64,000 nucleotides of DNA from Candidatus Woesearchaeota archaeon (GTDB lineage Archaea > Nanobdellota > Nanobdellia > Woesearchaeales > JACPJR01): the NCBI GenBank assembly GCA_016187565.1, contig JACPJR010000014.1, positions 62,001-126,000 of the forward strand, given 5' to 3'. The notes beneath the pieces are model-generated. The model was not told the DNA's origin. It made no database searches and saw only the letters and a program-made list of their open reading frames with translations. Each line of letters starts with the position of its first letter. The first letter of the stretch is position 1. The translations under genes were made by a program, and so were the position numbers. This document shows, in pieces, positions 10,943 to 55,361 of the stretch.

Positions 10943-11020
10943 GCGAGAGTTACCCTTGCTTAAATAATTATGGATAACAATCAGGAAGTATAATAAACGA
11001 TTAGTTTAAACTATTTAGCA

Positions 11021-11382
11021 TTACAGCGGCAATAATGGCGGTGCGACGGTCATTTTGTAACGCAAAATGCCCTACGAGTCACCCCATAAGGGACCCCGAC
11101 TCATCGCACGCCACGCAAACTCATGAAAATCCGTTGGATTTTCAGGATCCTCGAAAACTAAGTTTCCGGGAAACCGGAAATTCAAAGAATTTCCCAGTTC
11201 ACCGAAAATGCCATGCATTTTCGCGTGTTTACCAAAGTTTGATCAATGGGTGTAACATGAAGTTGCACGTCGCGGCCTTCGTGTTGCCTTAATAGCCGCG
11301 CCGAAGAGCTTCATGCTCTTCCTTGCGTGTCAACTGAGCGTAACCAGTTGCGGGGTGTGCGTAGGATTGCTCGCTGAGCAAA
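11021..11382 (+). repeat. Hairpin-mosaic repeat, copy A
   Basis: A non-coding element built from consecutive short hairpins, mostly with 3-nt loops. An outer stem GTGCGA/TCGCAC (11041-11046/11104-11109) encloses hairpins CATTTTG/CAAAATG and GAGTC/GACTC. Then come GAAAATCC/GGATTTTC (11125-11143), GGAAATTC/GAATTTCC (11176-11194), CGAAAATGC/GCATTTTCG (11203-11223), GTGTAAC/GTTGCAC (11250-11268), CGCGGC/GCCGCG (11271-11300), GAAGAGC/GCTCTTC (11303-11321), CAACTG/CAGTTG (11331-11350) and TTGCTC/GAGCAA (11367-11381). Bases 11117-11246 are identical, in reverse complement, to 37605-37734. It ends directly at the TATA element of the next gene. Open frames across it are by-products. Confidence 0.85.
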
Positions 11383-11414
11383 TACTTAAAAAGAACTAAT
11401 GATTTCCCTGATTG

Positions 11415-37294: not shown

Positions 37295-37411
37295 CTGACC
37301 CTCGTTTTCTTGTATTTTCTTAGGTTTTCTCGTCTTATAAATAGTGAACGGAGTATATAAAGCTTGTGTATGAAGTGAATACTTGTCTAAACCTGTGAAT
37401 CATAAACTGCA

Positions 37412-37761
37412 CGCCACCACAAGGGCGGCTGACGGATTTGCTCGTTGAGCAAATCCTACGCAACACCCCGGAGGGGGCAAGCCCCGTTGCGTCAGCGCCC
37501 AACTGGTTACGCTCAGTTGACACGCAAGGGAGAGCATGAAACTCTCCGACGCGGCTATACTGGCAGCACGCGGGCCGCGGTGTGTAACTTCAGGTTACAC
37601 CCATTTGATCAAACTTTGGTAAACACGCGAAAATGCATGGCATTTTCGGTGAACTGGGAAATTCTTTGAATTTCCGGTTTCCCGGAAACTTAGTTTTCGA
37701 GGATCCTGAAAATCCAACGGATTTTCATGAGTTTCGTCGCACCGCCTACAGCGGCGCTGTA
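37412..37761 (-). repeat. Hairpin-mosaic repeat, copy B (inverted relative to copy A)
   Basis: A second copy of the element at 11021-11382, in opposite orientation: 37605-37734 is identical to the reverse complement of 11117-11246 (130 nt). Further hairpins are TACAGC/GCTGTA (37747-37761), GTGTAAC/GTTACAC (37582-37600), CGCGGC/GCCGCG (37550-37579), GGAGAG/CTCTCC (37529-37547), CAACTG/CAGTTG (37500-37519), ACGCAAC/GTTGCGT (37458-37492, with an inner G/C-rich stem) and GGATTTGCTC/GAGCAAATCC (37434-37456). Relative to copy A it lacks the 3-way hairpin block near the core and has an extra G/C-rich hairpin. Stem differences between copies are compensated. Lies between purA and the purF promoter. 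Confidence 0.85.
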
Positions 37762-37785
37762 ATCGTAAAAGATTTACTTTGGAGT

Positions 37786-39633: not shown

Positions 39634-40227
39634 TTAATTCCCTCCTCTATTGTTTCTTAGTTGTTCTAATCTTCCAAGCTGTGCTTGCGAGGCATTGTAG
39701 GCTCTCTCAGCAGTTGAGGCTTCTATCCGTTGACGCATGGCTTCTCGTGCATCTGGTTCTGAATCCTTAAAGACGCCCATGAGGAATAATTTTCCGCTTG
39801 TTTCCTGATCTGCAGGATGAATCTCAAACCCATTTCTCGTAACCTTGTACCACGGATTACTGTTCTTCAAATCACTGAATCCATTACTTGATCCCATTGC
39901 AATATAATCTCCCGAAGAGAGGGTTCTGTTTTTGTCCCAGTCATAGACTTCTACTTGCATAGTCTCGTTAGGTGCAGCAAGAGTAAGACTGTAGAGTGTT
40001 GCTTCTTTCCGTCCTTGGTTATTTGTTCCTTCTTTGTAAGGATTATTTGTTCCTTCTTTGTAAGGAGTAGCCTTTCCTGATCTGAATGCGTCACCTGCTA
40101 CTTCTGCAATGAGTGCGTATTGTGGCGTACCTGCTGCATAACTTGTAGGGGCCTGCGCCTGTGCGTTGAGCGGAGCAGCAGTTATGTATGCTGCAATTAG
40201 TCCATTGACAAGGGTATTGAGTCTCAT
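39634..40227 (-). CDS. Secreted protein with EF-hand-like motif, paralogue 1
   Basis: 197 residues. The signal peptide is about 1-24 (NTLVNGLIAAYITAAPLNAQAQ). The mature part has VEVYDWDKNRTLSSGDYIAMG (about 108-128), an Asp/Asn-rich loop D-x-D-x-N-x-x-L-S-x-G-D like Ca-binding EF-hand or dockerin loops, then NPWYKVTRNGFEIHPAD and a helical tail with regularly spaced Ala/Gln. It shares all these with 40685 and 41290. A tandem octapeptide PYKEGTNN appears twice (bases 40019-40066). RBS AGGTGAAA precedes the start. Probably exported and membrane-external; function unknown. Confidence 0.7.
   Translation of the reverse strand: MRLNTLVNGLIAAYITAAPLNAQAQAPTSYAAGTPQYALIAEVAGDAFRSGKATPYKEGTNNPYKEGTNNQGRKEATLYSLTLAAPNETMQVEVYDWDKNRTLSSGDYIAMGSSNGFSDLKNSNPWYKVTRNGFEIHPADQETSGKLFLMGVFKDSEPDAREAMRQRIEASTAERAYNASQAQLGRLEQLRNNRGGN
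40019..40066 (-). repeat. Two tandem 24-bp units inside paralogue 1
   Basis: Bases 40019-40042 and 40043-40066 are identical 24-bp units encoding PYKEGTNN twice in frame. The equivalent place in the paralogue at 40685-41293 has a shorter imperfect duplication (TKEG, IKEG). This marks a slippage-prone, length-variable site in the mature secreted protein. Confidence 0.85.
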
Positions 40228-40266
40228 GCTTTCACCTGTATGTTTTGTAAAGAGTACAAATTGATT

Positions 40267-40638
40267 TTATTTATTGCCGTTCGATGTCGCAACTGGTGTT
40301 TCTGCTAACGCTAAAATATCACATTCCATTCCTGTATATCCGCCACCATCTACTTTAAAGTAAACACCAAACCCTGTCAAATTTCCATATTCAAGAAGAG
40401 GTGATAAACCAATCGCTGGATGCTTAGTGCCATAATCAACAATTCTGTCTGTTAACTCGCAGGTATAGGGTACGGGTTTGTCAGTATTTAATAGGTGATA
40501 TCCAGGAAGCCGTTTTTCAATTTCGCTTTGCGGTTTTGGAGTAGTAGCATCCATTGCTTGAGGTGCTGTATCTCCGCCACATCCACTTAACCCTAAGACT
40601 AATGCTCCAATGCCAAGCGCCTGTTGTATTTTGTTCAT
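40267..40638 (-). CDS. Putative lipoprotein, 123 aa
   Basis: I chose the ATG at 40638, because AGGTAAAACC precedes it and the product then begins with a clean signal peptide: MNKIQQALGIGALVLGLSGCGG. LSGC fits the bacterial lipobox consensus, so Cys20 may be lipidated. The mature part has two further Cys (CELT and MECD) that could pair and Gly-rich beta turns (YGNLTGFGVYFKVDGGGYTG). Function unknown. It sits between two members of the secreted paralogue family and probably belongs to the same transcript (46-nt gap from the upstream gene). Confidence 0.7.
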   Translation of the reverse strand: MNKIQQALGIGALVLGLSGCGGDTAPQAMDATTPKPQSEIEKRLPGYHLLNTDKPVPYTCELTDRIVDYGTKHPAIGLSPLLEYGNLTGFGVYFKVDGGGYTGMECDILALAETPVATSNGNK

Positions 40639-40684
40639 GGTTTTACCTCTTACCTTTATTGATCTCTGAACCGTTGGTGGACTT

Positions 40685-41293
40685 CTACGCCTCATGAAGA
40701 TGTTGCCCTAGTTTTTGTATTTGTCCTTGAGAGACGTCGTAGGTTGCTCGAGCAATGAGGTCTTCCACCTTTAGAATCACGGCATCTCGTTTTTGATCTA
40801 GTACCTCTCGTCCTCCAGGTATGGCCATACTCATTTTCGAGTATACATCCTCAATAGTTATTCCATTTGCAGGATGAATCTCGACACCATTATTCGTAAC
40901 CCTATACCATGGATTATCGTACTTCAAATCGCTTGAGATACTATTGGGTACACCTATGGTAATCTCATCTCCGGTAGAGAGGGTTCTGTTTTGGTCAAAA
41001 TCATCGATTCTTACAACAAGATCACTAGACGGAGAAACAGCAAATTTTGCCTGGTACGTCAGTCCTTCTTTAATTCCTTCTTTAGTCCAAACCATATACT
41101 GACTGTCTTCCCCTGATTGAAATGCCACTCTAGCTGCTTTTTGAAGGGTCTGGTATTCAGACGAGGTAGCCGCGTAGGTGGTTGGTGCTTGCATCGGTGC
41201 ATTCACTTGATCACCAGTCTGCGTCTGTGCGTTACTTGGTGTAAGAGCTACATACATTCCAATTAATCCATTGACAAGATTGTTTAGTTTCAT
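40685..41293 (-). CDS. Secreted protein with EF-hand-like motif, paralogue 2
   Basis: 202 residues from the ATG at 41293, which overlaps the stop of paralogue 3 (ATGA); a longer frame from 41335 would run into that gene. The signal peptide is about 1-25 (LNNLVNGLIGMYVALTPSNAQ). The mature region has RIDDFDQNRTLSTGDEITIG, the same D-x-D-x-N-x-x-L-S-x-G-D loop, then NPWYRVTNNGVEIHPANG and a helical tail ending in ATYDVSQGQIQKL. About the same length as its relatives. Probably exported; translation is coupled to the upstream paralogue. Confidence 0.7.
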   Translation of the reverse strand: MKLNNLVNGLIGMYVALTPSNAQTQTGDQVNAPMQAPTTYAATSSEYQTLQKAARVAFQSGEDSQYMVWTKEGIKEGLTYQAKFAVSPSSDLVVRIDDFDQNRTLSTGDEITIGVPNSISSDLKYDNPWYRVTNNGVEIHPANGITIEDVYSKMSMAIPGGREVLDQKRDAVILKVEDLIARATYDVSQGQIQKLGQHLHEA

Positions 41294-41901
41294 TGTTTCA
41301 CTGGTCTTAATATTATCATTTGTGTCCCTTGCCATAGTCTGTCGAGTTGTTCTTGAGAGCTCTGATATGTTCTACGTGCAAATTGAGCCTCTAAATCTTT
41401 ACTAGGAGCGTCGGTATCACTTTTCTGGGAGGTACTGTCTACTACAGTTCCCCAGTACATCATATCTGAGACTGAAGGGATTATGGTTAATCCATTGTTG
41501 GTAGCAATGTATGATGGATGAAACGCATCTAATCTTGTTCCAATTCCAGGTTCTCCTACCATCACCACATCTCCAACTGAAAGGGTACGGTTCTTATCGA
41601 AGTCATAGACTCCTACTTGAAGGGTATCATTCGGGGTAGTAAAGATACGTGCATAACAGGGACCTTCTCTTACTTCTTCATTCAGATCAATTCCATTCCC
41701 ATCAATGTTAAAAGTTCTTATCTTGGAAGAAGTAGGAGGAATTCCTGAGCTAAGGGCGTCATTGGTTACTTTTCCAATGAGCAAGTACTGCTCTGAACCT
41801 TTTGCGTAATGAGGAGCAGTTTGTGTCTGCGCCTGTGCGTTGAGCGGAGCAAGAGCAAATCCAGCTCCAATTAATCCATTTACAATCTGGTTTAGTTGCA
41901 T
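41290..41901 (-). CDS. Secreted protein with EF-hand-like motif, paralogue 3
   Basis: 203 residues. The signal peptide is about 1-25 (LNQIVNGLIGAGFALAPLNAQAQ). The mature part has GVYDFDKNRTLSVGDVVMVG, then HPSYIATNNGLTIIPS and the common helical tail (RRTYQSSQEQLDRLW). The three paralogues share the start LNxxVNGLIG, the AQAQ-type cleavage site, the acidic loop, a 'WY/SY-x-x-T-x-N-G' strand and the tail, and so arose by tandem duplication. Ribosome site GGTG is 8-9 nt before the ATG. First gene of the block after the 163-aa gene. Confidence 0.7.
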   Translation of the reverse strand: MQLNQIVNGLIGAGFALAPLNAQAQTQTAPHYAKGSEQYLLIGKVTNDALSSGIPPTSSKIRTFNIDGNGIDLNEEVREGPCYARIFTTPNDTLQVGVYDFDKNRTLSVGDVVMVGEPGIGTRLDAFHPSYIATNNGLTIIPSVSDMMYWGTVVDSTSQKSDTDAPSKDLEAQFARRTYQSSQEQLDRLWQGTQMIILRPVKQ

Positions 41902-41932
41902 TGTTTTTCACCTGTTGGTTTAGTTTACTGAC

Positions 41933-51395: not shown

Positions 51396-51490
51396 TATAA
51401 TAGAAAACCTAAATTTTTAATATTATTTGTTAGGTTTTCTAGTATATAATAGAGGAAAAAACATATTAAATACTATTGTCCTCTATTATA
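51396..51490 (+). repeat. 95-bp direct repeat with two hairpins, copy 1
   Basis: Matches 55267-55361 with two mismatches. It contains TAGAAAACCTA/TAGGTTTTCTA (51401-51411/51431-51441, 11 bp) and TATAATAGAGGA/TCCTCTATTATA (51445-51456/51479-51490, 12 bp), and TATAATAG starts while CTATTATA ends the unit. It lies between the Nif3-like gene's promoter and the lipase gene's 3' end. Confidence 0.9.
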
Positions 51491-55266: not shown

Positions 55267-55361
55267 TATAATAGAAAACCTACATTTTTAATATTATTTG
55301 TTAGGTTTTCTAGTATATAATAGAGGAAAAAACATAGTAAATACTATTGTCCTCTATTATA
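55267..55361 (+). repeat. 95-bp direct repeat with two hairpins, copy 2
   Basis: Same unit as 51396-51490, same orientation, two mismatches, with both hairpins intact. It sits between the NurA-domain gene and the TATA element of argS (55372-55380). The pair brackets a 3.8-kb segment holding the lipase and NurA-like genes. Confidence 0.9.

Follow-up and report, generated by a model that had tools for sequence, protein, structure and literature searches.

Two inverted copies of a structured repeat

The window, the whole 64,000-nt stretch of contig JACPJR010000014.1 from a Candidatus Woesearchaeota archaeon that was analyzed, contains two inverted copies of a non-coding repeat, copy A at 11.02–11.39 kb and copy B at 37.41–37.78 kb. 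The preliminary description of this DNA had reported a perfect inverted core, and the 130-nt stretches at 11117–11246 and 37605–37734 are indeed 100% complementary, while the adjoining 113 nt are 85% complementary between the copies. The chain of short perfect or near-perfect hairpins described there is present in the sequence, and the stem pairs quoted are confirmed (GAAGAG/CTCTTC against GGAGAG/CTCTCC, and GTTGCAC against GTTACAC). Folded as single-stranded DNA, the region 11000–11400 gives –80.7 kcal/mol, compared with –51.3 ± 4.6 kcal/mol for shuffled sequences (z = –6.3, 0/100). The corresponding value for copy B is z = –6.6, and RNA folding of either strand gives z of about –6.

Copy A begins with a left T-module at 11022–11112, a three-way junction whose GTAG strand is the minus strand (80.3 bits, E = 3.8e-15 with covariance model R1; 36.1 bits with R2). 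Read on that strand, the outer stem comprises GGCG/CGCC and GTGCGA/TCGCAC, the arm hp2 is CGAGTC/GACTC in its Watson–Crick form, and the arm hp1, CATTTTG/CAAAATG, lies between GTAG and CGTC. The DNA fold of this module gives the three-way junction, with z = –4.9. A cargo of short hairpins follows at 11115–11350; it recurs in many copies in the genome, with hairpins gained or lost. It contains the core, which reads on the plus strand, and its hairpins include GAAAATCC-GTT-GGATTTTC (11125–11143) and CGAAAATGCCATGCATTTTCG (11203–11223), of which the loop of the first is inverted to AAC, and the center of the second inverted, in copy L004. Four further hairpins are identified by sequence and fold: GGAAATTC-AAA-GAATTTCC (11176–11194), GTGTAAC..GTTGCAC (11250–11268), GAAGAGC-TTCAT-GCTCTTC (11303–11321) and CAACTGAGCGTAACCAGTTG (11331–11350). 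The copy ends at 11351–11385 on the plus strand with the remnant of a right T-module, comprising GTAG (11361–11364) and hp1; comparison with full right modules shows that it is cut off before the outer stem. Thus copy A retains its left module, the cargo and the stump of its right module.

Copy B retains the other end. Its right T-module is complete (37408–37499, GTAG strand minus; 94.8 bits, E = 5.7e-18 with R2; DNA fold z = –3.6), and is followed at 37500–37734 by cargo that is the reverse complement of that in copy A and contains the core. The left T-module (37735–37769, plus strand) is reduced to its outer stems, the arms being replaced by cargo hairpins, and R1 matches only 37736–37759 at 12 bits. 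Beyond it, at 37773–37780 on the minus strand, TTTACTTT is the inner part of a terminal motif, TGTAAAGTAA, reading inward; the best match on this flank is 8/10.

The host genome is 1.94 Mb in size and 97% complete, and its DnaG is at most 73% identical to those of Candidatus Woesearchaeota and related MAGs, which identifies the host as a woesearchaeote. A BLAST search with copy A found 57 pieces within it, corresponding to about 20–30 elements, and the covariance model gave 37 matches. The element is a modular, non-coding, dispersed repeat, in agreement with the earlier proposal of a modular structured element, and the gain and loss of whole hairpins noted between A and B is seen in further copies (e.g. 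L004 and L013). Besides the higher copy number, the picture changes in that the conserved part is formed by the three-way-junction modules at 11022–11112 and 37408–37499 and not by the hairpin chain. The cores of the elements are about 180–360 bp, and like MITEs they are short, multi-copy and without protein-coding capacity. In the shortest complete elements (L015, L017 and L019, with a core of about 180 bp) the hairpin chain is lacking, and there are just two inverted modules, each a three-way junction. The cargo lies between the modules in L009 and L010, and in L005–L008 it occupies the loop of hp2 in the right module; L021 and L024 have a shorter version of it, and L015–L019 none. A BLAST search with the cargo matched only loci of its own genome, and none in the sequences fetched from other genomes. 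The hairpin chain is lineage-specific cargo, not the core of the element. Six contigs of the genome start at or beside a T-module (L096, L097 and L098–L101). Assembly was thus probably interrupted by the repeats, making the copy numbers underestimates.

The T-module and its folded strand

The conserved unit is the T-module of ~95 nt, in which an outer stem and two arms, hp2 and hp1, meet at a three-way junction. On one strand hp1 lies between RYAG, usually GTAG, on its 5′ side and CGTC on its 3′ side. T-modules are commonly single, and in many elements are present as two inverted copies. Covariance models were made from left modules (R1) and right modules (R2, a three-way junction of 90 positions). 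Each finds the modules of the other, showing that left and right modules are homologous inverted units. How general is the T-module? Among relatives, every one of a different family, R2 matched 16 of 60 genomes, and the richest of these hold about 30 modules. In a sample of the phylum it matched 34 of 371 genomes, where all the matches fall in a single order, the Woesearchaeales, within a sample whose make-up by order is not listed.

The search of relatives by covariance model that had been suggested reveals strong covariation across the order. In an alignment of 55 modules 86% of cells are paired and 24 of 28 pairs exhibit double changes, with a covariation score of 0.437 that falls to at most 0.096 when the partners are slid. 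A further 100 modules from other genomes gave 86.8% and 0.457, compared with at most 0.092 when slid. Both alignments were fitted to the model structure, so that the percentages lean towards it, but slid and shuffled controls remain well apart. Individual sequences fold unaided into the three-way junction as their minimum free energy structure in most cases tested, with DNA z values from –3.6 to –8.6. L096 does not, as its hp2 has the GA/GA form discussed below and energy models give GA tandems little reward. The unpaired tags are well preserved in 174 modules, with RYAG in 151 (GTAG in 107, ATAG and GCAG in 21 each) and CGTC in 128; a GTAG tag beside a hairpin is also a characteristic of REPs and REPINs.

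Whole helices can differ between closely related copies. In the orthologous pairs L235/L244 and L239/L246, from two genomes of the same genus (G330 and G052), complete inner helices differ, whereas the outside stems and flanks agree. Similarly, two hairpin loops are inverted in L004 relative to copy A. Helices are therefore exchanged or inverted in blocks, and the covariation between copies A and B alone could stem from such exchange. The preliminary description had taken that covariation as evidence that the structure is maintained. Block exchange of helices makes the two-copy argument weak; maintenance of the structure is instead indicated by the order-wide alignment, and by a strand-specific exchange at the base of hp2. 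A different change is seen at one intergenic site, which has a doublet in G330 (L237) and a different single T-module in G052 (L252); this could be either a hot spot or the replacement of one element by another.

At the base of hp2 two neighboring pairs adopt one of two forms. Of 50 modules, 27 have two Watson–Crick pairs here, 22 have exactly 5′-GA/5′-GA on the GTAG strand, and one has neither. In the 100 further modules 65 are Watson–Crick (in many base combinations), 29 GA/GA and six other, and the reverse form is found in none. In total 92 of 150 modules are Watson–Crick and 51 of 150 GA/GA on the GTAG strand. As the 100 further modules were gathered with a model that favors Watson–Crick pairs, the sampling runs counter to this result. 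In RNA, as in single-stranded DNA, tandem GA pairs are stable, while the complementary TC/TC is not. G-T also exceeds A-C on the GTAG strand, by 60 to 28 in the first set and 126 to 45 in the 100 further modules, although these cells are not independent. By contrast hp1, which is the most variable arm, is nearly free of wobble, with just two G-T or A-C cells in 379. The switch to GA/GA is always on the GTAG strand, and G-T is preferred there. We infer that the single-stranded fold of the GTAG strand matters, and that selection acts on the fold of this one strand. This would be compatible with either RNA or single-stranded DNA. From sequence alone, the switch between Watson–Crick and GA/GA pairs offers an easy test of strand-specific folding, applicable to other palindromic repeats.

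Ends, signs of mobility and genomic context

The motif TGTAAAGTAA is found outside the modules on both sides, directed inward. It is matched in at least 8 of 10 positions on 23 of 56 flanks, compared with 3.4% of flanks further out, and on the opposite strand in just two of the 56. The p value of 1.5e-19 is too good, as the motif was partly derived from the sequences tested, but the orientation control is unaffected by this. A second terminal class ends in GGCTTCATCCAAAAA, with 25 matches in the host genome and 39 in G030, and none for the reversed pattern. MITEs with these ends have target duplications of 9–10 bp, and in G030 some of them hold a T-module; in the host genome too there is a GGCTTCATCCAAAAA end beside a T-module. 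In the GGCTTCATCC class target duplications of 9–10 bp are clear. Both this class and the TGTAAAGTAA-like motif constitute terminal inverted repeats of the kind found in MITEs. The association of T-modules with more than one terminal class suggests that module and ends may have separate histories. Six loci of the host genome (L265, L267, L279, L283, L285 and L289) represent a second family of MITEs, whose ends are GGCTTCATCC/AGCTTCATCC and whose target duplications are of 9 bp; this family carries an hp2-like hairpin, CCGACAAGGGGGATGTCCC..GGGGAATGTCGG.

In the TGTAAAGTAA class, to which the window copies belong, most copies are old or truncated. A generic scan for target duplications in 28 of these elements gave no excess over mismatched flanks. 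Single 5-bp duplications look right in L019 (AGAAA), L237 (TATTT) and L087 (CACCA). An empty site had been suggested as a check, and one was found in relatives at L240/L254. The element in G330, which is truncated, lies between 12-bp direct repeats GCTTTCGGTTTT that occur once in G052. For copy A itself, the flanking genes have no orthologues around DnaG in the named relatives. A solo right end (G000:C3:38583) considered as an autonomous copy proved to be a remnant adjoining a tRNA. Thus the earlier proposal of a mobile non-autonomous repeat gains from three signs of mobility, namely the terminal motif, one class of MITE with target duplications, and the empty site. The evidence is stronger for mobility of the family than for a function of the fold.

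Which enzyme might mobilize the elements? GTAG beside a hairpin first brought to mind a RAYT or IS200 enzyme, and the host genome has five Y1_Tnp matches. However, two of these proteins were tested and are of IS200 type, scoring under the RAYT cut-off. Moreover Y1_Tnp is absent from six of the 15 T-module genomes (G003, G052, G046, G033, G034 and G036), including G003 (97% complete, with 30 modules) and G052 (96%), two genomes that hold 15–30 modules. A model search around 15 Y1 loci of relatives found no T-module. RAYT/IS200 was consequently rejected as a general mobilizer. The TG..CA ends suggested DDE integrases of the rve family, of which there are none in six genomes. SWIM-type IS5-like genes of the DDE_Tnp_1 family are present in four of six genomes, but are absent from G330 and G052, and their ends do not match. 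No cognate autonomous transposon was found among the Y1_Tnp, rve and DDE_Tnp_1 matches in these incomplete assemblies. The terminal-repeat anatomy, that of MITEs, points to an ordinary transposase acting in trans, at least for one class.

The elements are intergenic, with four of 31 solitary modules overlapping a predicted ORF of at least 120 codons. Relative to the upstream neighbor 11 solitary modules are sense and 19 antisense, and relative to the downstream neighbor 14 and 16. With orientation to flanking genes unbiased, a cis-regulatory RNA of fixed orientation was rejected. The 49 intergenic spaces with elements, based on a crude gene call, comprise 25 co-directional, 19 divergent and five convergent. 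A match to a known non-coding RNA family had been named as a possible refutation; Rfam 15 has none for the window, and for six T-module loci gave nothing except tRNA at E values up to 1.

Relation to known elements and possible roles

The T-module elements share many features with REPINs and BIMEs (PMC3116915, PMC3733652), being short, intergenic and present in high copy number, with inverted doublets, GTAG adjoining a hairpin, hairpins predicted in the single strand, and stems that vary while the tags stay. They differ in that the T-module is a three-way junction of ~95 nt with GTAG and CGTC flanking one arm, in being archaeal, in the lack of a RAYT, and in having terminal motifs plus, in one class, target duplications. 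Nor is the T-module the simple stem-loop of 20–40 nt that defines a REP. REPs favor unidirectional and convergent spaces, with a preference for 3′ ends (PMC3733652), whereas our elements show no excess in convergent spaces (5 of 49, compared with 19 divergent ones, by the crude gene call). As both the RAYT and the simple stem-loop fail, we do not class the element as a REPIN, though it is REPIN-like in its working.

With the MITEs of DDE transposons they have in common small size, lack of an ORF, inverted termini, and target duplications of 9–10 bp in the GGCTTCATCC class. They differ in the structured, strand-specific module conserved across an order, and no cognate transposase was found among the families searched. 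Parvovirus inverted terminal repeats are also T-shaped, with an outer stem and two short arms; the likeness is one of shape only, as here there is no virus and no Rep protein, and the element is not terminal. Bacteria have other dispersed palindromic, structured, non-coding repeats, such as Correia/NEMIS, RPE and bcr1, from which the T-module elements differ in sequence and architecture. A literature search on MITEs or repeats of Woesearchaeota or DPANN, which lay mostly outside subscription journals, returned nothing relevant and no description of this family. REP-like repeats and their enzymes have been described for bacteria, and these REPIN-like, MITE-type non-autonomous elements are apparently new for archaea.

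We therefore favor, with a probability a little under 60%, a reading in which copies A and B are MITE-type non-autonomous elements of the Woesearchaeales that are moved by a transposase in trans and whose GTAG-strand fold is used. The body comprises one or two inverted T-modules, plus extra hairpin cargo in the host lineage. The transposase would recognize the ends and move the element, and the T-module would be kept because its GTAG strand acts in single-stranded form, most likely by being recognized by a trans-acting protein in mobilization or replication, as in REPIN/REP systems. Recombination or template switching could swap helices between copies in blocks, so generating the modular variation.

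Alternatively the elements might be an independent archaeal counterpart of REPINs, where folded single-stranded DNA is moved throughout the Woesearchaeales by a non-Y1 enzyme recognizing the GTAG-hairpin-CGTC junction; this we regard as rather unlikely. We are similarly doubtful that the GTAG strand is transcribed into a structured RNA, acting in cis or in trans and spread by hitch-hiking on MITEs. Selection on a single strand with GA/GA tandems and G-U wobble would fit with RNA, as would the presence of the T-module with different terminal classes. Against this, orientation to flanking genes is unbiased, Rfam has no match, inverted doublets place GTAG modules on opposite strands, and the near absence of wobble pairs from hp1 (2/379) would be unusual for an evolving RNA helix. 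An order-wide archaeal family with a fold selected on one strand and no RAYT would point to either a new partner that processes single strands or an RNA.

A REPIN/RAYT-like system proper, with a HUH tyrosine transposase cutting and pasting the folded GTAG strand, is improbable. It would account for the GTAG-type tag directly 5′ to a hairpin on the selected strand and for the inverted, intergenic, high-copy doublets, and there are the Y1_Tnp matches in the host genome. Yet six T-module genomes lack Y1_Tnp, no module lies near the 15 Y1 loci of relatives searched, the two proteins tested fall below the RAYT cut-off, and a 95-nt three-way module is unlike a 20–40-nt hairpin. In addition, IS200 was the only subclass of Y1 nucleases that a survey recovered from archaea, with RAYTs described as absent there (PMC6006769). 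Neutral palindromes, inverted-repeat DNA that is not selected for any function and owes its perfection to gene conversion and template switching, are very improbable as a full explanation. The helix swaps between orthologues, the inverted loops of L004 and the near-perfect hp1 stems might be so produced, but the unpaired tags conserved across families and the joint switch of two pairs to GA/GA, always on the same strand, would be left unexplained.

Other repeats were noticed in the course of the analysis. A 95-nt direct repeat (98%) at 51396–51490 and 55267–55361 of the window consists of two palindromes, TATAATAGAAAACCT..AGGTTTTCTA and TATAATAGAGG..CCTCTATTATA, and has relatives in L102 (G000:C14, about 29.2 kb) and in L033, where it adjoins an IS200-type gene. 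At 2600–3090 of L031 and 200–620 of L033 there are repeats that look like the template and variable regions of a diversity-generating retroelement; adjoining them are IS200-type genes and an ORF for a possible target protein. Lastly, 39634–41906 of the window contains three similar tandem ORFs (direct repeats D1, D2 and D4), which begin with a signal-like peptide.
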